Positions 754-18,671 are shown, counted from the stretch's first letter. The stretch: DNA of 37,511 nt from Deltaproteobacteria bacterium (GCA_024280265.1 JAJRQL010000089.1:1-37511); one strand, 5' to 3'. A program made the numbers and translations. Notes: generated from the sequence alone by a model not told the origin.

Positions 754-1299
754 CTATTTTGTCTTTAACAACGCTAAGTTCTCCTGGAGATCTTTGATGC
801 AGGCCTGTACATTACTGTCCTCGATTTTTCCGTCAATTGCTTCGATGAGAGCATTCATTGCCTTTTTACTCTTTCTTACTCTGTTACGGGTCTCCATGGT
901 TGTTTTGTTTATTTCCGCCGCAAGGTCAGAGAGGACATCACCATCTCTCAATCGTATCAGTTTCGTGAGGTCACCTGCCTGAATGGGTTTAAGATCCTGC
1001 TCAATACGGAAAATAGGACCGGCTATTTTTTGTGGCAGAAAAATAGAAAGGACTATCCCACTGATAAGACTTACCATACTACCAGCGATAATTACCGGCA
1101 AGAGGAGATCGCTGACTCGTCGTATCTTTATGTGGGCGTCAAAAAATGAAGATGTTATTTCGTTGCGGGCATAAAAGTAGAGGATCAGCGCTGCTACCAG
1201 TGAACTGATAAGGACGGCTCCAAAAATTCGCTTAAGAAGCCACCGCTGGAAATATTTTTTTACACCCATGTTCAGTTTTTTTCTTTTAAAGTTGGGCAT
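754..1299 (-). CDS. membrane protein with two helices and a HAMP domain
   Basis: A 181-residue inner-membrane protein. Helix one spans roughly residues 23-43 and helix two roughly 68-90, separated by a short periplasmic stretch. A HAMP linker follows (motif IAGPIFRIE...LKPIQAGDL) and the protein ends in a charged, probably coiled-coil tail. There is no methyl-accepting signalling tip, kinase or GGDEF domain, so any output partner must be separate. The start is set by AGGAG seven bases before the ATG. HAMP proteins transmit conformational change across the membrane. Its place among cytochrome genes suggests a redox or surface-sensing accessory, but that is inference. HAMP assignment is good; the function is unknown. 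Confidence 0.8.
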   Translation of the reverse strand: MPNFKRKKLNMGVKKYFQRWLLKRIFGAVLISSLVAALILYFYARNEITSSFFDAHIKIRRVSDLLLPVIIAGSMVSLISGIVLSIFLPQKIAGPIFRIEQDLKPIQAGDLTKLIRLRDGDVLSDLAAEINKTTMETRNRVRKSKKAMNALIEAIDGKIEDSNVQACIKDLQENLALLKTK

Positions 1300-2658: not shown

Positions 2659-4116
2659 TTATCGGTGTAGAACGGCCATGCCACGTGGTACTGCACCCAG
2701 TGAAATTCGGCCGGTGAGTTTTTTGCTCATCGGATCTATTATATCAATGGCTCCAGCTGCTTCATTCCCCACATAGAGCCATTTGTTTGCGGCACTGTAG
2801 GCAAATTCCAGTGGTGGGCCATCCATTCTGATGCTTTGGGACACATTAAGTTGCCCTGGTCTGATAATGGAGATGGAGTGTGCCCCCTTATTTGCAACAT
2901 ACACAGTATTGTTCACGGCAAAGATCCTTGCTGGTGAAAAATCCACCTGAATTCTCTGCTGCACCATGTTTTTAGAGAGATCATAGACCATCACAGAGTT
3001 GCCTCCGGATTCGGCGATATACAAATAATTGTCTCTGTAAAGCAGCAGGCCTTCAGGCTTGTTGCCAGTTGAGATTGTCTGAACCTTGTTCATTGTTTCA
3101 GGGTCCAGCAGGACAACAGACTGAGATTTGGAAAGGGTGACTGCCAGGAGCCTCTGCTGTTCAAGATAAACGATGTAGGACGGTTGATAACCAAGACGGG
3201 TTCCAAGATCTATTGCACCTGAACGGAGATTAAGGCGAACTATGTTGCCACGTTTGCGATCCACAACAAAGGCCCAGCGACTATCCGGGCTGGTGGTGAA
3301 TTGCAGACCTTTGCCAAGCATGGAAAGAGGGAAGTTTTCTTCAACCCGGTTGGCGGCAGGGCCGATCTTTTTGATCCCGATATCGTTCTCTGTCAGTGCA
3401 AAGAGGTTGGCCGTGGGAGCAGTGGGATCACTGATAAGGTACGTTGGGCCACCTGTTACTCCCAGGGAATCACACACAATATTTTTGTCTGTACAGATCA
3501 TAAAGACAGTGTTGATATCCGGGCAGGCCGCATAGGCCACGTCGACCAGCATGTTTTTGAGTCTTGAGGCCAGGGATAAAGCTGGCTTTCCGAGGGTATC
3601 TCCCGCAAGAGAAGTTCCAATATCCCAGAGGATAAAGAGTGAATGAGAATCCCCCCTGGCAACGTAGAGCGGCTGGTTGATCGCCAGTTCAGTGGTGACT
3701 GGGGAGACTTCTGTTTCTGATCCCGGCGGCTTACAGAGAGTTGTGATGCGAAGCCTGCTGTAATATCCAACTGGCAGGGCAGATCTGCCAAGAAACAGCT
3801 GCCCCAGAGGCAGTGTTCTGGAGTCAGCTGTTACGGGTGAGCGGAGAAGGGCGATCCAGTTGTTGCTTTCTGTGAGTATGGCAATGGATTGAATCGTCAT
3901 ACTCAGCTCAGAGCCTTTGGTTTTCTTCAGGTTCAAAAATAGAGAAAGTTTCCCTCCTCGGTCATCGTGAACCTGGGCCCCATTTCCCTGGATAGCGGCA
4001 CTGGAGGAATAACCGGCTCCCTGGGTGCGGCATCCTGATAAAAATAACAATATTAGACTACAGCCCAGAAAGAGTACCAGTGTTCTGCAACAGCTGGTCA
4101 GTGACTGGCCTGGCAT
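2659..4116 (-). CDS. YVTN-type beta-propeller lipoprotein
   Basis: A 485-residue lipoprotein. The ATG at 4114-4116 was chosen because GAGGA lies six bases upstream and because it places a hydrophobic signal directly before the lipobox LSGC (Cys29). A longer in-frame ATG exists but would overlap the octaheme gene. After the lipid anchor comes a domain of about 170 residues with a beta-sandwich look, resembling DUF4382-type domains (motif LPVGYYSRLRI). Repeated blades follow from about residue 230 to the end (AFVVDRKRGNIVRLNL, LYIAESGGNSVMVYD, VYVANKGAHSISII, LYVGNEAAGAIDIID). These are YVTN/40-residue propeller repeats. It lies among cytochromes and is probably an outer-membrane scaffold or assembly protein. 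No catalytic motif is evident. Confidence 0.88.
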   Translation of the reverse strand: MPGQSLTSCCRTLVLFLGCSLILLFLSGCRTQGAGYSSSAAIQGNGAQVHDDRGGKLSLFLNLKKTKGSELSMTIQSIAILTESNNWIALLRSPVTADSRTLPLGQLFLGRSALPVGYYSRLRITTLCKPPGSETEVSPVTTELAINQPLYVARGDSHSLFILWDIGTSLAGDTLGKPALSLASRLKNMLVDVAYAACPDINTVFMICTDKNIVCDSLGVTGGPTYLISDPTAPTANLFALTENDIGIKKIGPAANRVEENFPLSMLGKGLQFTTSPDSRWAFVVDRKRGNIVRLNLRSGAIDLGTRLGYQPSYIVYLEQQRLLAVTLSKSQSVVLLDPETMNKVQTISTGNKPEGLLLYRDNYLYIAESGGNSVMVYDLSKNMVQQRIQVDFSPARIFAVNNTVYVANKGAHSISIIRPGQLNVSQSIRMDGPPLEFAYSAANKWLYVGNEAAGAIDIIDPMSKKLTGRISLGAVPRGMAVLHR

Positions 4117-4159
4117 CAATTCCTCATTTGATGAGTAATATCGTCGGCTGTTTGATAGC

Positions 4160-5464
4160 TTAAAATGCAATGCGATAGTCTCCATTTGTATCAGCCCGGT
4201 TTGCCACTCCGCCATGATAATGACAATTCATACAGGGGATGGGTGCCGGTCCTCCGGGGCCTCCACCGCCTCCGCTGTGGCAGCCGCCGCACTGTTTTTG
4301 CACATAGGGGGCATCAGTGGCCAGGTGGTGGACATATTCCCACTTGTTTGCATCACTGCTGTTGCCATAATGAGCTTCATCGTCAATATGGCAGTTGAGA
4401 CAGAGCCGCCCCCATCCGTTATCATTGAGGCTGGTGATGGCACTGCTCAGGTTTGAACCGTTGACCCGCCTTCTCAGGAGCATGACATTTTCAGCGCCGT
4501 GGGGTTCGTGGCAGTCCAGGCAGGAGAGAACAAAATTTGTTCCACTGGAAGGGGTGTCATAGGGAGGTTTTGTTGAGACCGATCCATCCATCACCCGAAG
4601 GCCATGTTTATCTCCTGTGCTGCTCCAGTCAATTGTTTTAAGGTCGCGGCCAAGACTGGTACTGTATATAGTATTTGTTGCAGTGTGGCAACTGGTACAG
4701 AAGGCAACATAGTCAGGAGTACTGTCTCTGCTGGCGGCGGGATCTGAACTGCCTGCAGGTTCAAAAAGGTTGCCGGAGCAATAGGGCGACTGGTATTTTG
4801 TGTCATAGGCGGTGCCCATGGTCTCTGTGGTTCCCCAGAGGTTGAAATGGTCATTCGGCTTTGAGATGGCAGAAAATGTCGGATCTGAGGCGTTGTTCCA
4901 GTTCTGCCGGGCCAGATGCGGATTATGGCAGGCATTGCAGGGATTGGAGTAATCGGTGAACCAGCTGAAATTCGCCTTTGAGAACGTATAGATGTCGTAG
5001 AGATTATGGTAGGAGGCCTGGTTCATTGCCGATAGAATGGTGGTGGGGCCATCAATGGCACAGCCGAAACTTCTGCTGTAGTCATTGTTTGAGACACTCT
5101 GGGCGGAGGTGGGAGCGTTATGGCAGTAAAAGCAGAAATTGTCTGATTCGGCGTAGGGGTTTTCCTTGGCTGCACTGTTAAAATTCTGGGCAAAAAGCTC
5201 ATAGGCTGCCACGCCTGTGGTGGGAACCGGTTCGCTGCCCTGAATACTGCCATGCTGTTCATGACAGTGGGCGCAGTTTCCCCGGGAGTAACCAAAGCCT
5301 GAAGGTGGTGGGTTGCCGATTATGGGGCGCAGCACTCCATAAGAACTGGACCCGTGCGCAGAATCCAGGTATGCGCCGGCATAGAGACTGGATGCTGACA
5401 GAAGAGCAGCCAGCACGATCAGTGAAGAGAGAATGAATCTCCTGGTCAGTAGACCCTGAAACAT
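4160..5464 (-). CDS. octaheme c-type cytochrome
   Basis: A 434-residue exported cytochrome. The start at 5462-5464 gives a clean signal peptide (basic n-region RR, then a hydrophobic stretch ending near LYAGA) with GAGG upstream. The longer frame upstream overlaps the preceding gene and is unlikely. Eight CXXCH motifs are visible: CAHCH, CFYCH, CNACH, CTSCH, CLDCH, CLNCH, CGGCH and CMNCH. Several are followed by PH(G) or HG, which supply likely distal histidine ligands. Between the last two hemes is a glycine-proline-rich linker (GGGGGPGGPAP). It starts 73 bases after the second OmcS-like gene and precedes the YVTN propeller. A periplasmic or surface electron carrier is inferred; no enzyme signature such as a CXXCK heme is present. 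Confidence 0.9.
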   Translation of the reverse strand: MFQGLLTRRFILSSLIVLAALLSASSLYAGAYLDSAHGSSSYGVLRPIIGNPPPSGFGYSRGNCAHCHEQHGSIQGSEPVPTTGVAAYELFAQNFNSAAKENPYAESDNFCFYCHNAPTSAQSVSNNDYSRSFGCAIDGPTTILSAMNQASYHNLYDIYTFSKANFSWFTDYSNPCNACHNPHLARQNWNNASDPTFSAISKPNDHFNLWGTTETMGTAYDTKYQSPYCSGNLFEPAGSSDPAASRDSTPDYVAFCTSCHTATNTIYSTSLGRDLKTIDWSSTGDKHGLRVMDGSVSTKPPYDTPSSGTNFVLSCLDCHEPHGAENVMLLRRRVNGSNLSSAITSLNDNGWGRLCLNCHIDDEAHYGNSSDANKWEYVHHLATDAPYVQKQCGGCHSGGGGGPGGPAPIPCMNCHYHGGVANRADTNGDYRIAF

Positions 5465-5503
5465 GGGATATGTCCTCTTTGGGTAGAATTGTGAATTCTT
5501 TTT

Positions 5504-5520
5504 CAGGCCCTTGGGGCCTG
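5504..5520 (-). other. intercistronic stem-loop
   Basis: CAGGCCC at 5504-5510 and GGGCCTG at 5514-5520 are perfectly complementary around a three-base loop. It lies between the second OmcS-like gene and the octaheme gene. In the transcript it is followed by A residues rather than a U run, so it is not a standard intrinsic terminator. It may protect or process the mRNA between the two cytochromes. Confidence 0.55.
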
Positions 5521-5537
5521 GTTGCGATGCTGTCATA

Positions 5538-6596
5538 TCAGTTTTTACTGGTATGGCAGATAGCACAACCGTTATAGCCCGCTGCAGGCCATGCCTTGTA
5601 ATTCCAGCGCAGTGAGCCTGCGTAAGGGCTTCCATGGGCTCTATGGCAGGAAAGGCACATTACCAGGGCATCATTTGCCTGGGTGAATACTGTGGTATTT
5701 AAATTAGTCGTCACATCTGCGGTGGCCACTGGTGAAATAACACTGTAGATATTATTGCCATACGTGGTTGAGTTGTTATAAAACTGGTACTCAGTTGATG
5801 ATATGGCGTTGGTCATGTCAAAGTCTGTTGGGTGCCGCAGCCAGACGCCAGTACCGAGGGTTGTCCCCGAAACGAGGGTTGCGGGGCCGTTATGGAAGTA
5901 TTCATGGCACCGGGCACACTGTGAACTGATGGATCCATCGGCTGTTTCAGTTTCAGAGGTGCGGTCGATTCCATAGTATTTGTTGTGTTTCTGGTCTGTC
6001 GGACGATATTCATAGTCGGGGACACCCATGCCCTGGGCGGTGTTCAGCATCCGGTAGCTGGTGGCAAGGGTTGTTCCGTCCTGCCAGATCGTATGGTCTT
6101 TATAGTGGTGGCTTCCTTTGACGGCAGAGATCTGCTCACTGAAATTCTGGTCACCGTGACATCCCATACTGCCTGCACAGCGAAGTTGGCTGGTGAATGT
6201 CCCATCGTTTCCAGGAGGAATGTTGAGGGTTTGATCCTTCCCTGATATGCCGTAGACATTGTGACCCCTCCTGTCTCCAATATTATTTACCCAGTAGAAG
6301 TTGCCACCGGCAAGGGTGTTGGAGTCTGCCTCTGTACCTGTTGCCCGGTACTGCGGCGGGGTGGTTGAAAAAACAAAGGGGGTGTTATTTGACCCGTCAT
6401 TTTGCCCGGTATGGCAGCCGATACATCCGGTAACCAGTAGTGCCGGGTTGGGTACTCCACTGTCTGCAACCCAGAGGTTGTCTTGGGAGTTGTGCATGGT
6501 GTGGCAGGAGACACAGGGGCCCGTTACACCAGCCAGGGAAGAGATTGGCAGAAACAGCAAAAAGCTGAATGCAGATACTCTGACAATATTTCGCAT
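5538..6596 (-). CDS. OmcS-like hexaheme cytochrome, paralog 2
   Basis: A 352-residue exported cytochrome whose ATG at 6594-6596 gives a short signal peptide ending near SSLAG. Five standard heme sites are at C28-H32, C58-H62, C227-H231, C314-H318 and C344-H348. A sixth, at C140/C146-H147, has five residues between the cysteines (CX5CH) instead of two. Landmarks shared with the Geobacter filament cytochrome OmcS as I recall its sequence are CHTMHNS at the first heme, AGGNFYWV, GHNV, a CHxxxHN fourth heme, RHP and CLSCHRAHG. Its length is below the roughly 430 residues of OmcS. It is clearly paralogous to the protein at 17553-18671. An extracellular cytochrome able to polymerise into a conductive filament is the best guess, inferred from family resemblance and context rather than shown. 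Confidence 0.85.
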   Translation of the reverse strand: MRNIVRVSAFSFLLFLPISSLAGVTGPCVSCHTMHNSQDNLWVADSGVPNPALLVTGCIGCHTGQNDGSNNTPFVFSTTPPQYRATGTEADSNTLAGGNFYWVNNIGDRRGHNVYGISGKDQTLNIPPGNDGTFTSQLRCAGSMGCHGDQNFSEQISAVKGSHHYKDHTIWQDGTTLATSYRMLNTAQGMGVPDYEYRPTDQKHNKYYGIDRTSETETADGSISSQCARCHEYFHNGPATLVSGTTLGTGVWLRHPTDFDMTNAISSTEYQFYNNSTTYGNNIYSVISPVATADVTTNLNTTVFTQANDALVMCLSCHRAHGSPYAGSLRWNYKAWPAAGYNGCAICHTSKN

Positions 6597-6760
6597 AATC
6601 GACCTGTTCCATGGAGAAATCCTGTGATACCCGGGTTCTCCTGTAAAGGTTAGGTGCTGGGCCTCCACGTTGAATTTCCAGAGACTACGGTATAAACATC
6701 TGTTGTTCATGGCGAAGTGAGCATGGATGTCGCTTTGTTCATCATTGCCAAGGGTTCCTC

Positions 6761-7654
6761 TTATCTTTTGAAAATTTCTACTTTGGCATTTCCTTCATCC
6801 ACCAGACAGAGTTCTCCCCAGGGATCAAAGCGTATCTCAATGGGGTAGTAGAGCTGCCCTCGGGTAATACCTTTCTTAAGGAAGCGGTACTTGAAGATGC
6901 CACTTCTGTCATAGGCTGCAACACTGCGGCGCTGCCTGTCAAGAACATACATATATCCTGTGGGACCAATGGCGAGTGATACAGGAAAAACGACGCTTTT
7001 ACCAAGTTTAAAGGTCTTGATCAGCTTACCGTCAAGGTTGAAACATCTGATTGTCTTCCCGGCCTGATCAAGTGCCCAGAGCTTCCGGTCATGGATCTTA
7101 AAATCAACAACCCCCCAGGCACACTCGGAGCATGAAAAGCGGGTGAGTGCCTCCAGTTGCTCGGAATAGCTGATAATGTTTCCAGTTGCCTTGTTGAGAA
7201 CATAAAGAATATCTCCATCCGCCTCGATTCTGTCGGGATAGACAAGCTCTCCGTTGTACATGAGGCTGTTTGGGGTGACTTTTTTCTCCTTGAGGTCAAT
7301 ATAGCTCAGGGAGTTACGTCCTTTCTCCACAATCCATACTCCTTTCGGGGTGGTTTTAACCATGTCAAAAGGAATATCGAGGGCCTTGCCTGCATTGAAA
7401 ATGTTGAGCAGCTCACCTTTGCGATTAAAGGAGAGGAGGCGGTTGCGGCCACTGTCCACAACATAGTAAAGCCCTTTGTCTCCATCTATGTAAAGAGAGG
7501 TCGGCATCATCATGGCATCATTGACCAGATCTTGTTTAAGAACCCTGTCCCACACCCAGGGAGATGCCGCGTGTACCCTTTTCGCGTGGTAACCTGCCAG
7601 GAGAGAAAGGAGTAACAGTAGGCTGACGATTTTTGGGCCTGATATGGTATTCAT
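6761..7654 (-). CDS. NHL-repeat beta-propeller protein, exported (OscD-like candidate)
   Basis: A 297-residue protein with a signal peptide (residues 1 to about 29, core SLLLLLSLLAG). The rest is built of NHL-type propeller blades: GLYYVVDSGRNRLLSFNRKG, GVWIVEKGRNSLSYID, ILYVLNKATGNIISY, LWALDQAGKTIRCFN, GYMYVLDRQRRSVAAYDRSG and ELCLVDEGNAKVEIF. That gives about six blades and no catalytic signature. The start at 7652-7654 was chosen over upstream in-frame codons, which would run into the 16-heme gene; GGAG lies upstream. A beta-propeller accompanies OmcS in the Geobacter omcS-companion cluster and affects filament morphology. This gene sits directly between the giant cytochromes and the OmcS-like gene. 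Equivalence to OscD is inference. Confidence 0.87.
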   Translation of the reverse strand: MNTISGPKIVSLLLLLSLLAGYHAKRVHAASPWVWDRVLKQDLVNDAMMMPTSLYIDGDKGLYYVVDSGRNRLLSFNRKGELLNIFNAGKALDIPFDMVKTTPKGVWIVEKGRNSLSYIDLKEKKVTPNSLMYNGELVYPDRIEADGDILYVLNKATGNIISYSEQLEALTRFSCSECAWGVVDFKIHDRKLWALDQAGKTIRCFNLDGKLIKTFKLGKSVVFPVSLAIGPTGYMYVLDRQRRSVAAYDRSGIFKYRFLKKGITRGQLYYPIEIRFDPWGELCLVDEGNAKVEIFKR

Positions 7655-7703
7655 TTGGTTTCTTACACTCCACTTGTTCTGCTCAAAGGTCATTTTGCAC
7701 ATA

Positions 7704-8879
7704 TTAATAGGCCCTGTGGCACAGTATGCACAAGTCACGTTTCCCTTCCTGGACCATGTGATACTTGAAATTTGTCCCCATGGGGTTGTGACAGGAGACA
7801 CAGGTAAGCATTTGTCCGGTATGCTTGTCGAGCACTTCAGGTCCCACCGGATGGGTGAAGTTGCCCTGAGTTTCGTGGCATTGTACGCAGACTGCATTAC
7901 CGTCATTTTTCAGCATGGACAGGTTCCTGCTGCCATGGGATGCATGGCAAGTGGAACAGTTATCAACCGGTGGGTGTTTGGATATGGTCTTTCTGTAGCG
8001 ACGCACAGTTTCACCATGGCAGGAGTAGCAGACCATTTTTTCCCGATTTTTCAAAAGGGCCTTGTCATTTCCGGCATGGGGAGAGTGACAGTTGAGGCAG
8101 CTGTTACCATCTTGTATTGTTATGTGGCTGTGGTTGGAAAGCATTTCTTTACCGATATTTTCATGGCATTTCAAACAGGTTGCCATGCTGACCTTTGTCT
8201 CACCCTGGTGACAGGAGGCACAGTCTTCGACATACGGCTGGTGCAGGAAATCCCGCATCAGAGCTTTTCGCTCACTGCCATGGGGATTATGGCAGGAGAG
8301 ACAACCCTTGAGAGCCACCGGGTAATCTTTGTGGCTATTGGCCAGTGCGGTTTCATCCTGATGGCAGGAGAGACAGAGCGCGTCGGGTTTATCCAAGAGA
8401 AGCTGTAAGTTGTCAGCCTGATGGGGGGTGTGGCAGCTGCTGCATTCACCGTCGGCGTATGGTTTATGTGGGATCTTATATTCTTTTTTCAGTTTTGTAT
8501 GGCACGCAAAGCAATTTTCAGCAAGATCGCTGGAGACAAGGCCTTTTTCGCTACTTGCATGAGGGGTGTGACAGACACTGCACTTTCCTTTGGAGACGGG
8601 ATCATGGACAATTCCCGAGCGGAACTGTTTCTGGCTCTCACTGTGACAGGAGTAACAGAGCACAGCCTCCTGCTCACGAAGCAGGCCCTTGTACCTGGCC
8701 ACATGCGGGTTGTGGCAGACACTGCACTTGGATTCAAGTACCGGCTGATGGGTGACAGTATCCGTGAAGAGTTTTTTGTCGTGGCACTCAAAACAGACAG
8801 CAGCATCTACGGCGGCAGTGGCCCCGCTCACAAAGAGAAGTGGCAGCAGGGCTAAAAATGCTGAAATGAATATCCTCAT
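7704..8879 (-). CDS. 16-heme periplasmic c-type cytochrome
   Basis: A 391-residue protein with a cleavable signal peptide (residues 1 to about 22, ending GATA-A) and no lipobox. It contains 16 CXXCH motifs, about one every 23 residues, mostly in doubled-CXXCH pairs with the pattern CxxCHxPHxS/G. This gives a nearly fully heme-packed wire-like protein. Its ATG overlaps the stop of the upstream 26-heme gene by one base (TGATG), so the two are likely translationally coupled and made in matched amounts. A soluble multiheme partner of an outer-membrane barrel and an outer lipoprotein is the standard layout of trans-outer-membrane electron conduits. The periplasmic role (MtrA/OmaB-like in position, not in sequence family) is inferred from this. 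Confidence 0.92.
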   Translation of the reverse strand: MRIFISAFLALLPLLFVSGATAAVDAAVCFECHDKKLFTDTVTHQPVLESKCSVCHNPHVARYKGLLREQEAVLCYSCHSESQKQFRSGIVHDPVSKGKCSVCHTPHASSEKGLVSSDLAENCFACHTKLKKEYKIPHKPYADGECSSCHTPHQADNLQLLLDKPDALCLSCHQDETALANSHKDYPVALKGCLSCHNPHGSERKALMRDFLHQPYVEDCASCHQGETKVSMATCLKCHENIGKEMLSNHSHITIQDGNSCLNCHSPHAGNDKALLKNREKMVCYSCHGETVRRYRKTISKHPPVDNCSTCHASHGSRNLSMLKNDGNAVCVQCHETQGNFTHPVGPEVLDKHTGQMLTCVSCHNPMGTNFKYHMVQEGKRDLCILCHRAY

Positions 8880-10882
8880 CAGTTTGACCTCCCTTTATGG
8901 CAGGGCCTGCAGTTGCCCTCCTGAAAAGGTGTATGGCCAACCGGGTAGAGCAGGCCTTTATCCGGACCACCATGAGCGTCATGGCAACTATTACAGGAGT
9001 CGGGGCCCGGCTCAATGCCTTTGTGAACAGTTGTGAACTCGGGGCCGGTCACAGTATGACACTCTGCGCAAAGCTGACTTCCTTTTTTATTAACCATGCC
9101 GGGTTCATTGGAGCCATGGGCCTGATGGCACTGGAGGCAGTTTTTTGCCGCCGGTCTGTGGACCACCCCTTCGCGCCAGAATTGGGCAATGTCTGTATGG
9201 CAGCTGAGGCAGATGACAGGTTGTGCTTTCTTGAGAATAAAGTCATGCGGAGAGCCGTGAGCAGCATGGCAGGTGGTACAGTTTTCATCCACTGCAGGTT
9301 TGTGGGGAAAGGTGGAGTTCAAGATGATGTCGTTGACATCACTGTGACAATCCAGACAGAGCTTGCCGGGTTTCTTTTTTATGACATAGGAATAGTCAGC
9401 AGAGTGCGGCGAATGACATATGTTGCAGTTACCCTTGGCTACCGGTTCATGGGGTCTGATGTTTTTTTCTGATTTTTGAATGGACTCATGGCAGGACGCG
9501 CAGAGTGCCCCACCGCTGTTGTCTGCTCGTAGAAAGGTTTTTTCCGTGGCTCCATGGAGCTGATGGCAGCCGCTGCAGTTTCCTGTGGCAAATGGTTGGT
9601 GCAGGCTGAACCTGCCTCGTTCATCTGCCTGTTTTTTATGACAGGAGAAGCAGAGTTCTCCCTGGGTGATTACCAGAAGTCTTGCACTTTGGGATTGATG
9701 AGGCTGGTGACAGGTGTTGCAGTTCTCCCCGTCGGCCGGTTGGTGGCTGCCGCTGGATGGCTTGTATACATCCCCGTTATGGCAGGTGAGGCAGAGGGTT
9801 TTATTGTCGTGTTTAAGCTGGAATTTACGGGGAGCAGCGTGACCGTTGTGGCATGACAGACATTGTCCGTCCACAACCGGTTTGTGACGACTGATGATCT
9901 CAGGTTTACTCTGGTCCATCATCGGTCCCTTCATCTTTTTTGTTTTCTTTTCAAAGGCTTCAGGTTGATGACAATCAAGGCAGATTTTGTTGGCAGGTTT
10001 TGCCAGCAAGACCCGTTCATCACTGGCATGAACAGAGTGACAGCTGGTGCATTGCTGATCCAGATAGGGTTTGTGGACACTGTCTTTTCCTGTGGCTGCC
10101 ATTGGCTTCTTGTGACAGTCAAGACAGAGGGTGTTGGCCGGAGCACTTGTGGTAATTTCTGTGCCACTGACCTGATGACAGGAGCCGCATTCTCCTTGCT
10201 CCATTGGTTGGTGTAGGGTTTTCTTGAGAAGTCTGGGGGCGTCACTTGCATGCGGGGTATGACATTGTATGCAGCCAGTTTGTACCGGATAGTTGCTGTG
10301 AACTTTTATGAATGTGTCCCGGTCTGCCTGGTGGCATGAGAGGCACTGTGCATCGGAGGGCATGGTAAGAAGACTGGCATTGTCCGATTTGTGTGGAGTG
10401 TGGCATGTCTGGCATCCATCATCCAGTGGGGCGTGGACATATTTTTTTCGGAATGCAGCCTGCTCATGACAGCTGAAACAGGTCGCCTCAGGGGTTTTTG
10501 TCAGGAGTTTCCGGTTTGTTGAATTGTGTGGAGAATGGCAGAGGCTGCATTCGCCTCTGGCCACGGGAGCGTGAACAGATTTCTGGTCAGCGGCTGGTGC
10601 TATTGTTTCATGGCAGTTGAAGCAGAGATCCGGTTCAGTTTGTCGCAGAAAGAGTCCTCCGATCAGGCCATGGGGCAGGTGACACTTGTCGCAGCGGTCG
10701 TTTTTTACGGGTTCGTGGACAAACCCCTGTTTAAGCCGCTGGCCCATTTCGGGGTGGCAGTCAAGGCAGCCCTGGGCTGGCCGTTTATTCGATTGGCGAT
10801 CCTGTACACAGGAAAAAAGAACTGCCCCGATAATAACAATACAAAGCGGGAAGACCTTTTTATTGAATTTAGTGATTTTCAT
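8879..10882 (-). CDS. 26-heme outer-membrane lipoprotein cytochrome
   Basis: A 667-residue protein. Residues 1-24 form a lipoprotein signal with lipobox LFSC (Cys25). I count 26 CXXCH motifs from CLDCH near residue 39 to CRPCH near the C-terminus, one per about 25 residues. They fall in doubled-CXXCH repeats with CHxPHxS and HxPV/A motifs that supply distal histidines. No other domain is visible. The ATG sits inside the end of the prolyl isomerase gene (14-base overlap) with AGG four bases upstream, and its stop overlaps the 16-heme start. It is the probable cell-surface partner of the barrel and the 16-heme protein. An inside-facing orientation is also possible because the lipid anchor does not fix the side. 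Confidence 0.92.
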   Translation of the reverse strand: MKITKFNKKVFPLCIVIIGAVLFSCVQDRQSNKRPAQGCLDCHPEMGQRLKQGFVHEPVKNDRCDKCHLPHGLIGGLFLRQTEPDLCFNCHETIAPAADQKSVHAPVARGECSLCHSPHNSTNRKLLTKTPEATCFSCHEQAAFRKKYVHAPLDDGCQTCHTPHKSDNASLLTMPSDAQCLSCHQADRDTFIKVHSNYPVQTGCIQCHTPHASDAPRLLKKTLHQPMEQGECGSCHQVSGTEITTSAPANTLCLDCHKKPMAATGKDSVHKPYLDQQCTSCHSVHASDERVLLAKPANKICLDCHQPEAFEKKTKKMKGPMMDQSKPEIISRHKPVVDGQCLSCHNGHAAPRKFQLKHDNKTLCLTCHNGDVYKPSSGSHQPADGENCNTCHQPHQSQSARLLVITQGELCFSCHKKQADERGRFSLHQPFATGNCSGCHQLHGATEKTFLRADNSGGALCASCHESIQKSEKNIRPHEPVAKGNCNICHSPHSADYSYVIKKKPGKLCLDCHSDVNDIILNSTFPHKPAVDENCTTCHAAHGSPHDFILKKAQPVICLSCHTDIAQFWREGVVHRPAAKNCLQCHQAHGSNEPGMVNKKGSQLCAECHTVTGPEFTTVHKGIEPGPDSCNSCHDAHGGPDKGLLYPVGHTPFQEGNCRPCHKGRSN

Positions 10883-12500
10883 CTACCTGCTCCAACTCTT
10901 CTTTAAGGTTCTGCCATACGGAATCATTGATTTTTACCTTGTATTCCTTTTTGAGTTGTTCCAGATAGTCTCTGCGGAGCTTCTGGCTTTTTGCAGCCTG
11001 CAGAGTTGTCCTTATGGACTCTCTGACTTCAGATAACGGCTGGATCTGTGCCGGTTTTCGTTCTATGAGCTGAACCAGGGTAATATGACCATCAACAGAA
11101 AAGACGTCACTCACCTCATTGACCGTTAATTTGTCAAGGACCTCTTTTACAGTCTTGTTGATGTGATCCACCGGCAGATCCCGGATGGGGATATCCTGGC
11201 CAGTTCTTTTCTGGGCAAGGAGCCTGAAGTCACCACCCAGGGCAACTTCCAGCCACAGAGAGTTGAGTCCATCCTCTGATCCTTCAACAATTACCATGCG
11301 GATCACCTCGGGCCGGCTGAAGAATTTTATATTTGCGTTGTAATAGGCCTCAATTTCTTCTTCACTGATGACCATATCGGTGGCAAAGAGTCGCGCTTCC
11401 AGGAGCTTTACCATCTGGTGCTGACGGTAAAACTGGTAAATAGCTTTAAAAGGGGGCCTGGTTTCGTATCCCCTGGCCACCCCCTCCCACGAAGTCAATG
11501 TCTGATCTATTATACCATTGACGACCTGGTTTTTGAATTGAAAACTTGTATCTTCGCTGAAACCATTTTTTCTTCTGAACTGGTGCAGTTGCTTGAGTTT
11601 TCCTACAACAATTTTTTCTGATATGTTGCCGTGGCTTGTGTAGATAAGAGGCTCGTCAGACAGTTCGTCATCGGGAATGGTGATGTCGAGCTGTTCCAGA
11701 CGGTCGGTATCGATTCTGACCTCATACTGTTCACGAAGATTCTTGAGCAGTTCAATGGTGAGCCTGGTTTCCTCTTTTTTCCAGATCTTTTTATGGATAC
11801 TCTCCCGGATGGATTCCATATCTTCACGGGTTCCTTCCTGCCTGTCCTGGAGACGCAGAACCACAAACCCCTCTTTCCAGGGAACCGGTGGAGACAAATC
11901 TCCTTTCTCAAGCTTGTTGAGAATGGGAAGCCAGCCGGGATTTATGGTGACAGGTCTGTACCACTCAATCCTCTTGGCATAGTAGCCACCCTTGGTCTCT
12001 GCCATGCCGGCGAACTCTTCGTCGCTGAGTGGTTTGTCACTGAGTGTATCTTTGAAATCTGTTGCACCCTCTTCTTCCTTAAAGAAAAAGATGTTGAGCT
12101 GATAGAGTGGGGCGTAGCTGTCAAGGTAGAGTTCCCAGAGGGCATCGTCTGTCACCTGTATCTTCTGATCCACCTCTTCACTTTTTAGTCGCATCAGGGT
12201 TCTGGCCTTGAGAAAGGTGCGCGTTTTGTAACGGTATGCCGGCGCCTCATAGAGCTTCATCTTCTCGGCTTCTTTAAAGAGGAGGTTCCATTCGACAAAG
12301 GCGGTCGGAGTTTCGGGGAACTGCATCCCCTCTTCTTGCCAGTTGGCCCACCAGTCCTTGAAATTCTGGGTTGAGTAGTCATCGTCACCGATGGTGACCA
12401 GGGTTGGTGGTCCCCAGGAGAACCAGCCACTCTGAGCTGGCAATACAGTGCAAAAGAAGAAAACAGTGATGCTGCAGATAATCGTTTTTATTCGGGACAT
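10869..12500 (-). CDS. SurA/PpiC-like peptidyl-prolyl isomerase chaperone (OscH-like candidate)
   Basis: A 543-residue exported protein. The ATG at 12498-12500 has AAGGA nine bases upstream. The signal peptide core is IICSITVFFFCTVLPAQS. A helical N-terminal region resembling SurA-type chaperones (about 45-125) is followed by a parvulin-like domain at about 130-225 (motifs EEFAGMAE, GYYAKRIEW, LEKGDLSPPV, GFVVLRLQDR). A second parvulin-like domain lies at about 385-490 (VIVEGSEDG, GGDFRLLAQ, VNEVSDVFSVDGHITLVQLIE). It overlaps both neighbours by 13-14 bases. In Geobacter a prolyl isomerase chaperone, OscH, folds OmcS for export. The same partnership is inferred here, possibly also for the proline-rich giant cytochromes. 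Confidence 0.88.
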   Translation of the reverse strand: MSRIKTIICSITVFFFCTVLPAQSGWFSWGPPTLVTIGDDDYSTQNFKDWWANWQEEGMQFPETPTAFVEWNLLFKEAEKMKLYEAPAYRYKTRTFLKARTLMRLKSEEVDQKIQVTDDALWELYLDSYAPLYQLNIFFFKEEEGATDFKDTLSDKPLSDEEFAGMAETKGGYYAKRIEWYRPVTINPGWLPILNKLEKGDLSPPVPWKEGFVVLRLQDRQEGTREDMESIRESIHKKIWKKEETRLTIELLKNLREQYEVRIDTDRLEQLDITIPDDELSDEPLIYTSHGNISEKIVVGKLKQLHQFRRKNGFSEDTSFQFKNQVVNGIIDQTLTSWEGVARGYETRPPFKAIYQFYRQHQMVKLLEARLFATDMVISEEEIEAYYNANIKFFSRPEVIRMVIVEGSEDGLNSLWLEVALGGDFRLLAQKRTGQDIPIRDLPVDHINKTVKEVLDKLTVNEVSDVFSVDGHITLVQLIERKPAQIQPLSEVRESIRTTLQAAKSQKLRRDYLEQLKKEYKVKINDSVWQNLKEELEQVDENH

Positions 12501-13078
12501 GGGAGCATTCCTTGGTTGGTCCAATTGGTTATAATTTCCTGGGACATGCGGCGGGCCAGGGCTGTAAGGGTTTTGAGTCTGCCAATGTGCATGAGTTGTT
12601 GGTATTCTTCTCCACGCCGTCTGTGGTAGGTTATCCAGAGAAGCTCACCAGTCTTGCCATGATAGAGTAGCAGGATGAGGGTGAGTTCAGTGTCCACAAA
12701 ATTCCCACTGTCTCTCTGGTACATTTTTTGTACAATTCCGCCAACAAGCAGATCCGGGTTGAGGCGGCCTCCAATCATCTTCAACTGCTCCCGGCTGGGG
12801 AGCCGATTTGGGTATAAGAGGAGCTGCTGATAGATATTTCTGACATCTCCCTCCTGGAGGAGTTGAAACTGGCCAGAAGCGGCCAGCTCAGAATGGAATA
12901 TCTTTGCCACCATATCACCACCCTGAAGATAATTGGATTCGTTCAGGAAAGGGAGTATGGCAATTTTACAAGTTCCTTCTGCCGGAAGCGGTGCCAGCTT
13001 TTTGGTTGAGGGAACCTGTTTACCGCAGGCGGTTAGAAGGAGCAGGGCGATCAGGAAACAGGGAAGAATATTTTTCAT
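12488..13078 (-). CDS. CsgG/TolB-like lipoprotein, third of three
   Basis: A 196-residue lipoprotein with lipobox LTAC (Cys18). The mature part shows a CsgG/TolB-N-like alpha-beta fold: an opening strand IAILPFLNES, then GQFQLLQEGDV, then LNPDLLVGGIVQKM, then LLLYHGKTGELLWI. The same four landmarks occur in the genes at 13082-14620 and 14617-15201. CsgG-type proteins form outer-membrane export pores and TolB/LpoB-type ones assist envelope complexes. Three different members in one operon suggest a hetero-oligomeric channel or its periplasmic part. The gene starts three bases after the preceding gene and overlaps the chaperone gene by 13 bases. OscEFG-like identity is inference. Confidence 0.8.
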   Translation of the reverse strand: MKNILPCFLIALLLLTACGKQVPSTKKLAPLPAEGTCKIAILPFLNESNYLQGGDMVAKIFHSELAASGQFQLLQEGDVRNIYQQLLLYPNRLPSREQLKMIGGRLNPDLLVGGIVQKMYQRDSGNFVDTELTLILLLYHGKTGELLWITYHRRRGEEYQQLMHIGRLKTLTALARRMSQEIITNWTNQGMLPCPE

Positions 13079-13081
13079 ATC

Positions 13082-14620
13082 TTAGAACTCCTCCACCCAT
13101 TCGGTTTCAATACTGGTTTCAATTTCCTCTATCTCACCTTCCGCCATCTCGAAGAGATCGCGAATCCGTTTCTTATACTGGTTGCCAAGTATATCTCTGG
13201 CGGTGAGCAGGCACTGAATCTTATCCCTGGAATCATTGGCGAGGTCGAGTTCTATGGAGGCGGGAAGCTCTGTTCCCTGTGCAAGTTTGAGAAGGCTTCC
13301 ATCTTCCTTGAAGAATTTGGCCCACCAGAAAATGAGAGGGGTTTCGGTGAAGTAATCAAGATCCACTCTGATTTGTGGATCCTCGCGGGATATTTCAACG
13401 GTCATCTCAGGCAGTTCCGGGAGGTATTGAACCCAGGCTTCTGTGGAGGATTCGCGTTCAGCACGATCCCAGGCCCTGAAGGTGATCAGGTATCCACCCG
13501 GGTCTGCGGTTGTGCCATAGGAAGTTCTGCCGTTCCAGGTCAGGCTTCGTGGCAGATTACCGGTTTTGTCGATGAGCACAATGACATCCTCATCTTCATC
13601 GGTAACTGATATTGCCCAGTGGCTGATGGGTTCTGGTTTGATAAGCTTAGGGAGGATACGCAGGTTTCGGCTGAAAAGTATTTCCCCGTTCAGTTCAGTT
13701 CCCAGTAATGTCAAGCGGACACCGGGTTCCTCAGTGTCAATGCTGTAAATGCCAATGACACTCTCCCTGCTGATACCGGACGGCCACCGGGCAAGAAGAT
13801 TCACGGTGTAGGTCCCGGCCTCCCCGCCAGCTTTCCAGGAGGTACTGTATGAGTACTCCCCTTCGTTACTGGTAAGTGGGTAATGCTGGTCGCCAACCTG
13901 AACTGAGAGTTCCGGCATACTGCCCTGTTCGTCGATGGATTTGTGGATTTTGACCCTGCAGGAGATCTCTTCTCCCGGTCGTAAATATTGGGGATGGATA
14001 AAAATGGTGTCTATGTTGAGACTGGTTGTTGCTTCCCCGGCAGTGCTTTCGGAAGTGGGCATGCTGGCAAACAGCTGCTCGAAAAATGGAGCATACAGAT
14101 CCTCAATGCCGTGGGGATCGTCGAGGCCCAGGAGGTTGATCTGGTCAGCATAGCTGAGGTTTGCCGTCTGGCTCCAGATAATTTTTGAGTCTTCAGTTCT
14201 GCTGAGCTGAAGGGTGAGGCAGAGAAGTGGCAGCTCGCCGGTGTTGATCTGGTAGAGGGTTCCCTGGAGGACAAGGTCAGCCTGTAGTTCTTTACGAACA
14301 AGAGATGCCTGGTAGCTTGTCAGCTTCCCAAGTTGCCTGATCCTGTTGCGGATCAGAAATCGCATGACTTTCTCTGCAGGTACCAGGGTTTTGTTGCGAT
14401 TAACGAGTTCCTGGCGAACTCGTTCTGTCACCGGATTGTTTATACCGTTGCTATCCCGGGTAAGGGCGAGCAGCGGGATGAAGGCAATGGTTTGGGCCCA
14501 TGCGGTTCCGGTGAACAATATGGCGCTGAGCAGCAGGGACAGGTGCAGCAGGAAAATGGCTGATCTGTTCCGTGACCGGAAGTGAGACCAAATGCTATGC
14601 ATTAGAAGCAGGTGTATCAC
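13082..14620 (-). CDS. exported CsgG/TolB-like protein with Ig-like beta domains
   Basis: A 512-residue protein starting at a GTG (14618-14620) with GGGAG five bases upstream. The GTGA overlap with the stop of the preceding gene supports this start. After a signal peptide (ending near TAWA-QT), residues 43 to about 200 repeat the CsgG/TolB-like pattern seen in its neighbours (IAFIPLLALTRDSN, LQADLVLQGTLYQI, KIIWSQTANLSY). The remaining 300 residues are beta-rich modules resembling Ig-like or FlgD-type domains (LRPGEEISCRVKI, GGEAGTYTVNLLARWPSG, DPGGYLITFRAWDRA). The acidic C-terminus is EIEEIETSIETEWVEEF. It is probably a secreted scaffold attached to the channel. No enzymatic motif is visible. 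Confidence 0.78.
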   Translation of the reverse strand: MIHLLLMHSIWSHFRSRNRSAIFLLHLSLLLSAILFTGTAWAQTIAFIPLLALTRDSNGINNPVTERVRQELVNRNKTLVPAEKVMRFLIRNRIRQLGKLTSYQASLVRKELQADLVLQGTLYQINTGELPLLCLTLQLSRTEDSKIIWSQTANLSYADQINLLGLDDPHGIEDLYAPFFEQLFASMPTSESTAGEATTSLNIDTIFIHPQYLRPGEEISCRVKIHKSIDEQGSMPELSVQVGDQHYPLTSNEGEYSYSTSWKAGGEAGTYTVNLLARWPSGISRESVIGIYSIDTEEPGVRLTLLGTELNGEILFSRNLRILPKLIKPEPISHWAISVTDEDEDVIVLIDKTGNLPRSLTWNGRTSYGTTADPGGYLITFRAWDRAERESSTEAWVQYLPELPEMTVEISREDPQIRVDLDYFTETPLIFWWAKFFKEDGSLLKLAQGTELPASIELDLANDSRDKIQCLLTARDILGNQYKKRIRDLFEMAEGEIEEIETSIETEWVEEF

Positions 14621-15201
14621 TCAACTCCCTTTGGTATGGTTAAGAGTATGTTGTCCAGCAGTTCTACGGTGATCTGGAAGGCATCCATGGGGTCCAGGCC
14701 AAAAAGACGATCGGTGAGAGAGTAGCCGTTCAAGGTATCACTTGCTCGCCACAGAATGAGGGCAGATTCACCATCAAGGAGCTGGAGGCTGACAGAAATT
14801 TCAGGATAGCTGAAGGATCCCTGTCGGTTTTCCCCAATGTTGTTTACTGTTCCAAGGACTAATCCCTGGACATTGAGTCGTTGAGAGAGCTGCTTGACAA
14901 TGGGGACATCCAGAGGACTGTTTCTGTCAATTCCCATTTCCTGCAGGGCATTGTCGACAACTCCTTTGTCCACCAGGTCAAAAATTCCTTTTGCCATGAT
15001 CTGAGTTGCGGTAATGTCGCGGATGCGGGCTGCCGCAAACTCATCCTTGGTATTGTTCTCAAATGGCAGGATGGCAACCCGGGTGATAAAGTTCAGGTCA
15101 ACCCCCTCACGCAAAAAGGTCTGGGTGGAGGCCCTCTGGCCGCAGCCGTAGCTGGAGAGAAGGGTGACGGTCAGAAACAGTAGCAATGGTAGTTTTTTCA
15201 T
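14617..15201 (-). CDS. CsgG/TolB-like lipoprotein, first of three
   Basis: A 194-residue protein with a signal ending SSYGC (Cys20, an acceptable though not ideal lipobox). The mature sequence opens with VAILPFENNTKDE, then a helix-strand unit GIFDLVDKGVVDNALQEMG, then LNVQGLVLGTVNNI and LQLLDGESALILWRA. These are hallmarks of the GNA1162/CsgG/TolB-like fold. The ATG lies three bases after the true end of the barrel gene and the stop overlaps the next start. Position between barrel and chaperone, and its two paralogous neighbours, suggest an outer-membrane export or conduit-assembly unit. Function is inferred from fold and context only. Confidence 0.8.
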   Translation of the reverse strand: MKKLPLLLFLTVTLLSSYGCGQRASTQTFLREGVDLNFITRVAILPFENNTKDEFAAARIRDITATQIMAKGIFDLVDKGVVDNALQEMGIDRNSPLDVPIVKQLSQRLNVQGLVLGTVNNIGENRQGSFSYPEISVSLQLLDGESALILWRASDTLNGYSLTDRLFGLDPMDAFQITVELLDNILLTIPKGVE

Positions 15202-15204
15202 AAT

Positions 15205-17390
15205 TTAAAACCTGCTTGTTAATCGGGCATTGATAAGCCAGGTGTTTTCCTCCTGGCCGATGATATAACTTGCTATGGATTGCATCGTAAAAAATTCGCT
15301 TATATTCCAGCTCCAGTTGGCGTTCACCCCCTGGAGGATGTCACTTTCTATGGAGCTGATCCTGTGTCCTACGGTGAAGTTGGTTTTGACGTCCGGACCA
15401 GAGAGAAGTTACTGTCGAGAAGAAGGCTCTGGTATCCTGACCAGGCCTCTCCGTAGCCCTGAGAGGCGTTGGCCTTTATTGAGACCAGGTCAGAGGGACG
15501 CCAATTGATATTCAGGGTTGCCCGCCCGCCGGACTCCTGAAGATCTGTGATTTCATTAAAGCCAACACCTTCGGAACCATGCTCTGCAATAAAGTCAACT
15601 AACAGGGTGGGGCGCAGCCGGGCGGTAAGAGTCCAGCGCATGGAGAGGCCCTCGGACGAGCGGTCCAGCTTTATATTTGTGTTAAAGTTCGTGTTGACCT
15701 CAAAGGTGGTGTCGAGATTTGGATACAGAATTGCGGTGACGTTGAGATGAAAGGAGTCATTGGTTGTCTGGGTCTTTCTGTCGGTGCTGTTTTCACTTCT
15801 GCTGATTCCAACAGTTGTGTCAAGGGTGGGAAGGAAAATTGATTGAATGTTCAGCGAATAGGAACGTTGTCCGGTGTCGGCAATATCACTGTTGCTGGTT
15901 GTGGTATCATTTACGGTGAATGAGGGGGCAAAGTATTGGTTGTACCACCACTGGACTCCGGCAGATTGAAAGATGCGGGTCCGGTCATTCGAGGTGTTGG
16001 ACTGTGAGTCATCCCAGACCATGGAGTAATTAAGAGTTGTTGAGGTGAAAGGAGTGTACCTGAGGTTCATGTCAATCAGGGTTCTGGTGTAGTCCTGTTG
16101 CTCGATATAACTGGCTCCCGTCCCCCCTGTTCTCTGGTTTCGGTAGGCTTCTATTTCTGTTATCGGAATAGAAAGTGTTGTAGGCCAGGCCGTTGTCACA
16201 AGTTTTATGTAGAGTTTCTGAACAGTTGAAATGTTGACATTGAAGCGGAAATTGTTCTGGTCATAACTTGTGGCCGGGTTTCGCTGGTCGAGTTGCCAGT
16301 TTATCCCATCGTCACTGGAGTAGAGATCCCAGCGTAAGGCGCCTGTTTCACTTACCAGTACGGGATCTATTTGTCCTGTGTAGACGTAAAGGGCGTCGAC
16401 TTCCTGGACATCTGTTTTGAGACCGATATTGGCCATCTCGTGGAGGTTGATTGCAAAAACAGCACTGTTCCTGTTGCCATCAAGAAGGCCGGGTGCTGTG
16501 GGAAGGGCGCCGCTTGTGGGAACCGGATCCACACCGGCAAATGCCTGACTGGCCTGGACGTTGACCAAGGCACTGTTGCCGCTTCCCGGGGTGACGGTGA
16601 GGTCAGTGGTGCTCTGGGTCAGCTGTCCAGAGGCGTTAAGGGAGAGCCGGTTCCCGAAAAAGGAGTCACCGTAATCAACGCGCCCAAAGTGCTTCAGCTC
16701 ATCATAACTTGTCCCTTCAACACCATCCTCCCGTATCTGGCTGTAGAGACTGTAATAGGTCTCAATTGTCTCTGATTCCCATTGGATTATAAATTCGGAC
16801 CACTGATTATTGGCATCGGTCAGGGGGACTTCTTCATTATCCTTGAGCCATTTCTGGCCGAAAATGACACTCAGATCCGGCCAGAATTCGTAGTTCCAGT
16901 TTGAAGCCAGGATGGCTTCCCAGCTCTGGTCCAGTTGGTCAGGCCTGTCTGTGTTGCTTGTTTCGTTAATGAGCCCACTGATTTCTGTGAAAAAAAGATC
17001 ATTTTCGATTTTGAAGTTTCCTGCTGGAGAGACAGTTTTCCTGACAATGTTGCCGGTGGTTATATTCTTTGAATAGCTGAAATTGGTGTCAAAGGAGATG
17101 GCTCGGGTAACCTGCGGATTCCACTGTATGCCATAGCGCTGATTAAAGCCGTTGGTGGATTCAGTTTCACTGGGGTTGACGCTGCTGTATTGCCAGGAGC
17201 CATCCAGAGATATGACTTCTGCTCTGGCAGCACTGGTGGAGTAGAGCAGAAAGAGGCAACAGAAAAGGGCCCGGAGCACTGTGGCCTGTTTTGTGAAAAA
17301 CGGTGGATGGGCTACTGTTACTGGCATTTTTTTGATAATGACTGTGGCAGCACGGTTCATCCTCGTTAAGGAGTTGATTATCCTTCTCAT
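15205..17390 (-). pseudogene. outer-membrane beta-barrel protein gene with a one-base frameshift near the 3' end
   Basis: The main frame runs from about 17390 to a stop at 15369 and encodes a signal peptide (core LRALFCCLFLLYSTSAARA) followed by alternating polar/aromatic strands typical of a 20-plus-strand barrel. Near 15371-15409 one base appears to be missing. The next frame continues the barrel for about 60 residues (VKTNFTVGHR ... INARLTSRF) to TAA at 15205-15207 and ends in phenylalanine, the usual Omp C-terminal signal. At about 16135-16470 there is an insertion with F5/8 type C (discoidin)-like motifs (RWDLYSSDDGINW, TEIEAY). The start is uncertain: 17390, 17360, 17327 or a GTG at 17279 are possible and none has a strong ribosome site. 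It is probably the porin of the cytochrome conduit. A sequencing error is as likely as true inactivation. Confidence 0.78.
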
Positions 17391-17422
17391 TTTTCTATAT
17401 ATAGGAGAAGTAGGATAATACA

Positions 17423-17452
17423 AAACCGGAGGATGGACAAGCAATGAATCGT
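17423..17452 (-). promoter_or_regulatory. possible promoter before the barrel gene
   Basis: On the minus strand TTGCTT, an 18-base spacer and TATTAT lie between the terminator of the OmcS-like gene and the barrel gene. The match is only moderate. A promoter is expected here because the terminator upstream would otherwise isolate the whole barrel-chaperone-cytochrome operon. Exact position is approximate. Confidence 0.35.
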
Positions 17453-17494
17453 CATAAACTTGCAATATCTTGAGTGAATTGCAGTAAATGGTAC

Positions 17495-17530
17495 AAAAAA
17501 ACCCCCAGCTCAAAGGTGAGCAGGGGGTTT
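17495..17530 (-). terminator. intrinsic terminator after OmcS-like gene 1
   Basis: In the minus-strand transcript a GC-rich stem (CCCCC and GCTCA pairing with TGAGC and GGGGG, one A-A mismatch, four-base loop) is followed by seven U residues. It lies 22 bases past the stop of the OmcS-like gene at 17553. It separates that gene from the barrel operon, so the first OmcS-like protein can be expressed independently and at a higher level. Confidence 0.88.
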
Positions 17531-17552
17531 GTGTTCATTAAAAAACAGGGGA

Positions 17553-18671
17553 TTATTTGGTGGTATGGCAGGTAAAGCATGCTCCGGTACCACTTACACC
17601 GGCATTCACCACACTGTAATCCCAACGTAACAGGTCGTCATTTGGTGTGCCGTGGGCACGATGACAGGCGATACAGGTGACAATGGTATCATTATTGAAT
17701 GTTACTTGACTGACAACACCTAATGACAGGTCAGAGCTGGCTACAGGAGCGGTGACCTGGTAATCATTATTGGCGCCGCCGTAGCTGTAATACTCGGTAG
17801 TGGTGTCAGCTATGTTGCCCATGTCAAAATCCGTGGGGTGGCGAACCCAAGGGCTGGCAAATACACCAGTTGTCGGATTGGTCCCGCCCACCTCCCCGGC
17901 ACCATTATGAAAAGAATCGTGGCATTGGGCACAGAGTGAAGAAATTGACTGTGGATCTTCGTCGTTTTCAGTGGTTCTTGCAACACCTTTGTACTGATTA
18001 TGCTCGGTTGAGGTTGGCGTGTATTCCCAGTCCCAGTCCTCTATTCCAATGATCCCATCAAGGAAACGGTAGCTTTTAGCAACAGTTGTGCCGTCGATTG
18101 CGCTATCATCTGCATGATGTGAACCACTGATTGCACCAAAGTCACTGTCGATTGCCTTGTCACCGTGGCACCCGTTGGTTCCAGCGCAAGTGAGCTGCGG
18201 TAATGTGGCTCCACCGGTATATCCAGGAGGGGTTGTGCCGAGCGTCGCATCTTGGCCTGAAAGACCATCTGTCGCCACGTTATGTCCTGTGGAATCAACA
18301 CCACCGCCTGTCGTTGCAACCCAGTAAAAGTTTCCGCCGGCCAGGGTGTCTCCAGTGGTACCATCAGCGCCATAGGTTGGAGTAGTGGTACTGTTGACAA
18401 AAGGAATGGTGAAAGTGCCAGCTACTCTCTGCTGGTTGGTTCCGGTATGACAGGCAACGCAACCCTTTACGAGCAGAACCTCGTTGGGTGCAGTCTGAGG
18501 AGCACCGGCAGCATCCACGGCCATTGGTGTTCCATCTTGACTGTTATGCATGGTATGACACACTGCGCACTGTCCTTCCACCTTTGCAGAAGCTGCAGCA
18601 GCCATCAAAAAAACACCGAGGCTGACACTGGCTAACACTCCGTATCTGTAGAGTTTGCGGTTAGATTTCAT
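17553..18671 (-). CDS. OmcS-like hexaheme cytochrome, paralog 1
   Basis: A 372-residue exported cytochrome with a signal peptide ending AAASA-K (residue 29) and a strong ribosome site (GGGAGG five bases before ATG). Heme sites are C35-H39, C71-H75, C247-H251, C333-H337 and C365-H369, plus an unusual CX5CH at C162/C168-H169. It shares with its paralog and with OmcS the motifs CHTMHNSQ, AGGNFYWV, GHNV, SYRFLDG, CHxxFHN, RHPTDFDM and CxACHRAHG. Unlike the paralog it is a single-gene transcription unit with promoter, about 160-base leader and strong terminator. That is what one expects of the abundant filament subunit. Polymerisation into a nanowire is inferred from resemblance, not demonstrated. 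Confidence 0.87.
   Translation of the reverse strand: MKSNRKLYRYGVLASVSLGVFLMAAAASAKVEGQCAVCHTMHNSQDGTPMAVDAAGAPQTAPNEVLLVKGCVACHTGTNQQRVAGTFTIPFVNSTTTPTYGADGTTGDTLAGGNFYWVATTGGGVDSTGHNVATDGLSGQDATLGTTPPGYTGGATLPQLTCAGTNGCHGDKAIDSDFGAISGSHHADDSAIDGTTVAKSYRFLDGIIGIEDWDWEYTPTSTEHNQYKGVARTTENDEDPQSISSLCAQCHDSFHNGAGEVGGTNPTTGVFASPWVRHPTDFDMGNIADTTTEYYSYGGANNDYQVTAPVASSDLSLGVVSQVTFNNDTIVTCIACHRAHGTPNDDLLRWDYSVVNAGVSGTGACFTCHTTK

Follow-up and report, generated by a model that had tools for sequence, protein, structure and literature searches.

Gene Content of the Locus

The window, the whole 37,511-nucleotide stretch of DNA that was analyzed, carried on its minus strand a co-directional run of genes from position 18671 down to position 5538, in which ORF and motif analysis distinguished ten exported proteins (Table 1). 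The order, read directly from the DNA, was OmcS-like a, a beta-barrel, three LpoB/TolB/CsgG-like proteins, a parvulin, a 26-heme lipoprotein, a 16-heme cytochrome, an NHL propeller and a second OmcS-like cytochrome. All the members of this run had been named in a preliminary description of the locus and were recovered on the minus strand with correct coordinates. The three "small" proteins were present as a related trio, but one of them was 512 residues long; its part beyond the N-terminal region is presumably Ig-like. The ORFs of the NHL protein and of OmcS-like b were over-extended at the 5' end, with likelier starts at about 7654 and 6596, respectively. The operon reached at least position 754, with four more genes past position 5538 that were kept in relatives, and another multiheme protein, cut by the contig end, occupied positions 2–658.

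Table 1. Genes and motifs of the operon in the window.
Feature	Position	Strand	Remarks
OmcS-like cytochrome a	17553–18671	-	5 CxxCH + CX5CHG at heme 3
CX5CH motif CAGTNGCHG, heme-3 position of OmcS-like a	18163–18188	-	
Large outer-membrane beta-barrel, MtrB-sized	15369–17513	-	ORF frameshifted near 15,385 vs sister genome (L040/L099)
LpoB/TolB/CsgG-like small protein 1, putative lipoprotein	14617–15201	-	LpoB E 5e-6
512-aa protein; N-terminal region related to small proteins 1 and 3	13082–14620	-	FlgD_ig weak, E 0.03
LpoB/TolB-like lipoprotein 3, lipobox LTAC	12488–13078	-	LpoB E 2e-5, TolB_N E 5e-4
Parvulin-type PPIase, OscH counterpart	10869–12524	-	Rotamase_2 E 7e-28
26-CxxCH cytochrome, putative lipoprotein, lipobox LFSC; GSU2495/OscI counterpart	8879–10882	-	
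16-CxxCH secreted cytochrome, plain signal; GSU2494/OscJ counterpart	7704–8879	-	
NHL beta-propeller, GSU2493 counterpart	6761–7654 (ORF 6761–7906)	-	NHL E 2.5e-5; start taken at MNTISGPK
OmcS-like cytochrome b	5538–6710	-	5 CxxCH + CX5CHG; likely start 6596
CX5CH motif CAGSMGCHG, heme-3 position of OmcS-like b	6154–6179	-	
8-CxxCH secreted cytochrome	4160–5635	-	Likely start 5464; beyond the ten-gene run; same place in relatives
YncE/YVTN-type propeller lipoprotein, likely OscD counterpart	2659–4215	-	YNCE E 5e-7; beyond the ten-gene run
5-CxxCH cytochrome, fibronectin-like middle	1362–2543	-	Neighbor of the propeller in relatives as well
HAMP-like small membrane protein	754–1299	-	Operon end, conserved

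The PPIase, the LpoB/TolB-type proteins, the NHL and YncE propellers and the multiheme cytochromes were supported by Pfam and NCBIfam. Promoter and terminator scans of the window stayed at chance level, and the Rfam scan of the window returned a tRNA match only.

The host genome (3.3 Mb, 96% complete) was taken as that of a member of the Desulfobulbales from its nearest named relatives. It contained aprA (genome G000); dsrA and dsrB were not found in this 96% complete bin. Since the genus mates carry both genes, their absence is likely a gap in the bin.

Counterparts in OmcS-Bearing Clusters

OmcS-bearing genomes were located with the OmcS sequence, itself verified at every residue against the PDB entry. 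Clusters with an OmcS 70–72% identical to that of Geobacter served as references and stand in for G. sulfurreducens, which was not found among the genomes searched. Near their OmcS gene lay a YVTN propeller, a barrel, two small proteins, a PPIase, a 26-heme cytochrome, a 15- or 16-heme cytochrome and an NHL protein. The homology between the window locus and these clusters was one-to-one and distant, with 16–35% identity between the proteins. The parts had been expected to be related to the OmcS-companion machinery, and every one of them was matched by profile, with E-values from 2e-17 to 1e-121. The strongest matches were those of the 26-heme (1e-121) and 16-heme (3e-73) cytochromes to their counterparts, followed by the YncE propeller with the YVTN propeller (2e-35), the PPIase (6e-34), the barrel (9e-33), small protein 1 with the OscF-position protein (5e-30), the NHL propeller (8e-23), and small protein 3 and the 512-aa protein, both with the OscG-position protein (3e-19 and 2e-17, respectively). 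The names OscD–OscG were attached to single positions on the basis of gene order and lengths, with the help of published descriptions (PMC13194489, PMC12977616, PMC3495685). The NHL protein, initially a candidate for OscD, was set aside in favor of the YncE/YVTN propeller at 2659–4215, given the profile match of the latter to the YVTN propeller of the OmcS clusters.

The layout resembled that of the Geobacter osc operon GSU2504–GSU2493, in which OmcS-like gene(s), a propeller, a barrel, TolB/LpoB-like proteins, a PPIase, a 26-heme cytochrome, a second large cytochrome and an NHL protein also form one run. Every genome with the GSU2501 hexaheme cytochrome has the eight-gene block GSU2500–GSU2493, called "nanowire secretion", and GSU2501 and this block have been linked to OmcS maturation and secretion (PMC12977616). 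Compared with the Geobacter operon, the window had three LpoB-like proteins and not two, its YVTN propeller sat at the downstream end, 8- and 5-CxxCH cytochromes were added, and heme 3 of the OmcS-like proteins corresponded to a CX5CH motif. The locus had been thought to merge a filament-assembly cluster with a separate conduit. This idea had to be abandoned because the OmcS-bearing clusters carry the same cytochromes, and GSU2495, which has 26 heme motifs (PMC2996986), lies inside the Geobacter block: the layout is the normal one.

A search with the PPIase among 395 genomes of the phylum gave 28 carriers. The complete block, from the barrel through small protein 1, the 512-aa protein, small protein 3, the PPIase, and the 26- and 16-heme cytochromes to the NHL protein, was present in 20 stretches fetched from other genomes, and a few had variants. 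The counts of 26 and 16 CxxCH were constant across complete blocks. As 20 complete blocks share both the order and these fixed counts, the gene run is not a chance assembly. Named carriers with the same order included Desulfobulbaceae and Desulfocapsa MAGs and Thermodesulfatator atlanticus, besides Deltaproteobacteria. Among relatives, the OmcS-like genes were nearly always linked to the osc block, and the predicted synteny was conserved.

Related arrangements have been published. In Desulfobulbia and Thermodesulfobacteria, OmcS/OmcX-like genes take the place of omcS/omcT at oetABI conduit cassettes (Murali et al. 2023, PMC10553843), and another sulfate reducer has 26- and 12-heme cytochromes with a PPIase (PMC12246660). 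Likened by its published description, the oetABI cassette of ANME partners shares with the window operon a barrel, a lipoprotein cytochrome, a periplasmic cytochrome and OmcS/OmcX-like genes, and seems to be the same locus. The operon for OmcS assembly and conduit forms one conserved unit that occurs far outside Geobacter, sulfur-cycling Desulfobulbales included, and its two branches are now linked by a gene-by-gene map. The window operon represents a divergent new branch of a known machine, with one possibly new structural detail.

The Barrel and the Large Cytochromes

The barrel gene of the window showed a one-base deletion at 15,380–15,390 relative to the sister genome, whose protein is 91% identical, and the last ~58 residues were cut off. 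Past this point the other frame ran on to a normal outer-membrane C-terminus (LTSRF); the frameshift may be genuine or may result from misassembly. The AlphaFold model of the intact sister copy (pLDDT 82.4) was a large barrel in which about 28 long strands were counted. MtrB (6r2q_B) was among its top structural matches, with a Z-score of 18.7 over 449 residues and a likeness along the full length of the barrel, tied with TonB-dependent receptors, and a sequence search with the barrel profile gave no match to MtrB. An insert near residues 273–401 showed a weak likeness to CBM32 or F5/8C domains (E 0.007), which Pfam recognized in one of 18 relatives (E 3e-4).

The 26-heme cytochrome matched chain 6r2q_A with an E-value of 2e-20. 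The label of this chain, cystathionine beta-synthase, was considered wrong because 6r2q contains the Mtr complex, and the match was treated as one to the Mtr cytochrome. The 16-heme cytochrome matched a DmsE-type decaheme profile (E 4e-50), under the curated cut-off of that profile. The locus is comparable to Shewanella MtrCAB in its MtrB-like barrel fold and in the similarity of the 26-heme protein to an Mtr-complex cytochrome. It differs in that no MtrC was found in the window locus, in its heme numbers of 26 and 16 as against 10, and in the inserted, possibly CBM32-like domain of the window-type barrel. The view that a barrel and large cytochromes lie together as in known conduits was correct in outline, since the barrel is MtrB-like and grouped with the large cytochromes, but they are not a second system joined to the first.

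The eight-gene block could alternatively be a secretion and assembly line for the OmcS-like proteins only, with the 26- and 16-heme cytochromes acting in assembly and no conduit at the locus. Folding and secretion are indeed the roles reported for OscH and OscE–G (PMC13194489, PMC12977616). However, two very large cytochromes beside an MtrB-like barrel define porin-cytochrome conduits, and Murali et al. assigned OetA, OetB and OetI to the conduit (PMC10553843). We consider an assembly line of this kind unlikely.

The OmcS-Like Cytochromes

A profile of the OmcS-like relatives found OmcS (6ef8) as its best match in the PDB, with an E-value of 9e-25, whereas the PDB search with a single OmcS-like sequence gave no match. 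With BLASTP, OmcS-like a and b aligned to OmcS with E-values of 4e-10 and 9e-15, respectively. In the tree, OmcS-like b formed a separate orthologous line. AlphaFold modeled the OmcS-like protein poorly (pLDDT 53.5), and Foldseek returned nothing useful with this low-confidence model; VIA-align listed OmcS with a Z-score of 5.8, too weak to rely on.

The OmcS-like proteins might be non-polymerizing terminal reductases or periplasmic cytochromes, the locus being then a conduit without wires. Homology cannot separate wire from non-wire cytochromes, and among several Geobacter paralogs only OmcS is known to form wires (PMC12977616); moreover, the identity to OmcS is about 27%, and few OmcS relatives have been proven to polymerize. 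Against this, the five CXXCH sites align with OmcS heme columns, most of the OmcS axial-His columns are conserved, and there is the near-constant association with the osc block reported above. A wire-free locus appears doubtful to us, and we retain filament formation as the working interpretation.

A Possible Atypical Heme-3 Site

The two OmcS-like proteins had been described as hexaheme. Six candidate sites were indeed present, but each protein had only five CxxCH, the sixth site being CX5CHG. In a set of window-type OmcS-like proteins defined by the motif itself, all 37 had CAGxxGCHG or a near variant at the place of the third CXXCH of OmcS, CX5CHG being invariant; the same invariant residues were seen in 36 of 36 proteins of a second alignment, chosen by homology and position. 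At the DNA level, the motif pattern was present in 37 of 395 genomes, not all of these matches being confirmed within OmcS-like genes, and a reversed control gave one match. The tree split the OmcS-type proteins from the window side with full support, and paralogs of the window-side clade had CX2CH, CX3CH or CX4CH in the same columns. This CX2-to-CX5 series argues for a heme anchor with a loop of variable length. Judging from these alignments, the filament subunit would probably keep six hemes, heme 3 being held through CX5CH and not CXXCH.

CX5CHG may also be no heme site at all, heme 3 having been lost and the two cysteines taking part in a disulfide or in metal binding, so that the subunit would be pentaheme. 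CX5CH is not a recognized heme motif, and no mention of it as such was found in the literature searched. In a gapless alignment of CSSCHDPHG with CAGTNGCHG, the CH of CX5CH is shifted by three residues, so that CHG falls on the PHG of OmcS rather than on the CXXCH histidine. The loss of heme 3 is nevertheless rather improbable in our opinion: the paralogs of the same clade have their shorter motifs at exactly those columns, the CH and both cysteines are invariant, and six bis-His hemes are feasible because eight other histidines are conserved in 95–100% of the rows of the OmcS-like alignment.

We propose, as a hypothesis that we hold to be evenly balanced, that heme 3 is bound via CX5CH, at the end of the CX2-to-CX5 series, in the OmcS-like wire subunits of Desulfobulbales, Thermodesulfatator and relatives, that CXXCH counting misses this heme, and that the heme chain of this branch is built differently from that of OmcS. 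Such an atypical anchor looks like the new part of the locus. Surveys based on CXXCH counts would call the window-type proteins pentaheme and miss their kinship with OmcS. The invariant CX5CH offers a test of whether a loop of this kind can hold a c-type heme in a wire.

Proposed Function of the Operon

We regard the locus as quite probably a divergent operon of the osc/oet type in a member of the Desulfobulbales, encoding OmcS-like wires, their assembly and an outer-membrane conduit, a function deduced from homology. In this model, the two OmcS-like cytochromes would be exported, loaded with heme in the periplasm and polymerized into surface filaments, as their homology to OmcS suggests. By analogy with the role reported for OscH, the parvulin would keep them in shape, whereas the LpoB/TolB/CsgG-like proteins and the barrel may aid their passage through the outer membrane, like OscE–G. 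The fold of the barrel and the MtrA-like sequence point to an outer-membrane electron conduit to the filament, which the MtrB-like barrel would form with the 16-heme periplasmic cytochrome and the 26-heme lipoprotein. The propellers might conceivably shape or dock the filament.

Other Arrangements in Relatives

The HAMP-like protein at 754–1299 was located at the operon end in both operon branches and may be regulatory or an anchor. Two genomes held both branches, OmcS-type and window-type, at separate places (L080/L098 and L048 in G301; L082/L097 and L058 in G008). A third OmcS-like gene with CX5CH was seen on another contig with no osc block nearby (G000:C117:1968-3080; L003, L034). In L047 (G249:C7), L112 and L113, a solitary OscH-like PPIase adjoined a 7-CxxCH OmcS-like gene, the rest of the block being absent; a wire protein and its chaperone may form a minimal pair here. 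Finally, a 1049-aa protein with 42 CxxCH, encoded near OmcS-like genes and beside two LpoB-like proteins (L095:13271-16420), is related to the 26-heme cytochrome but larger.
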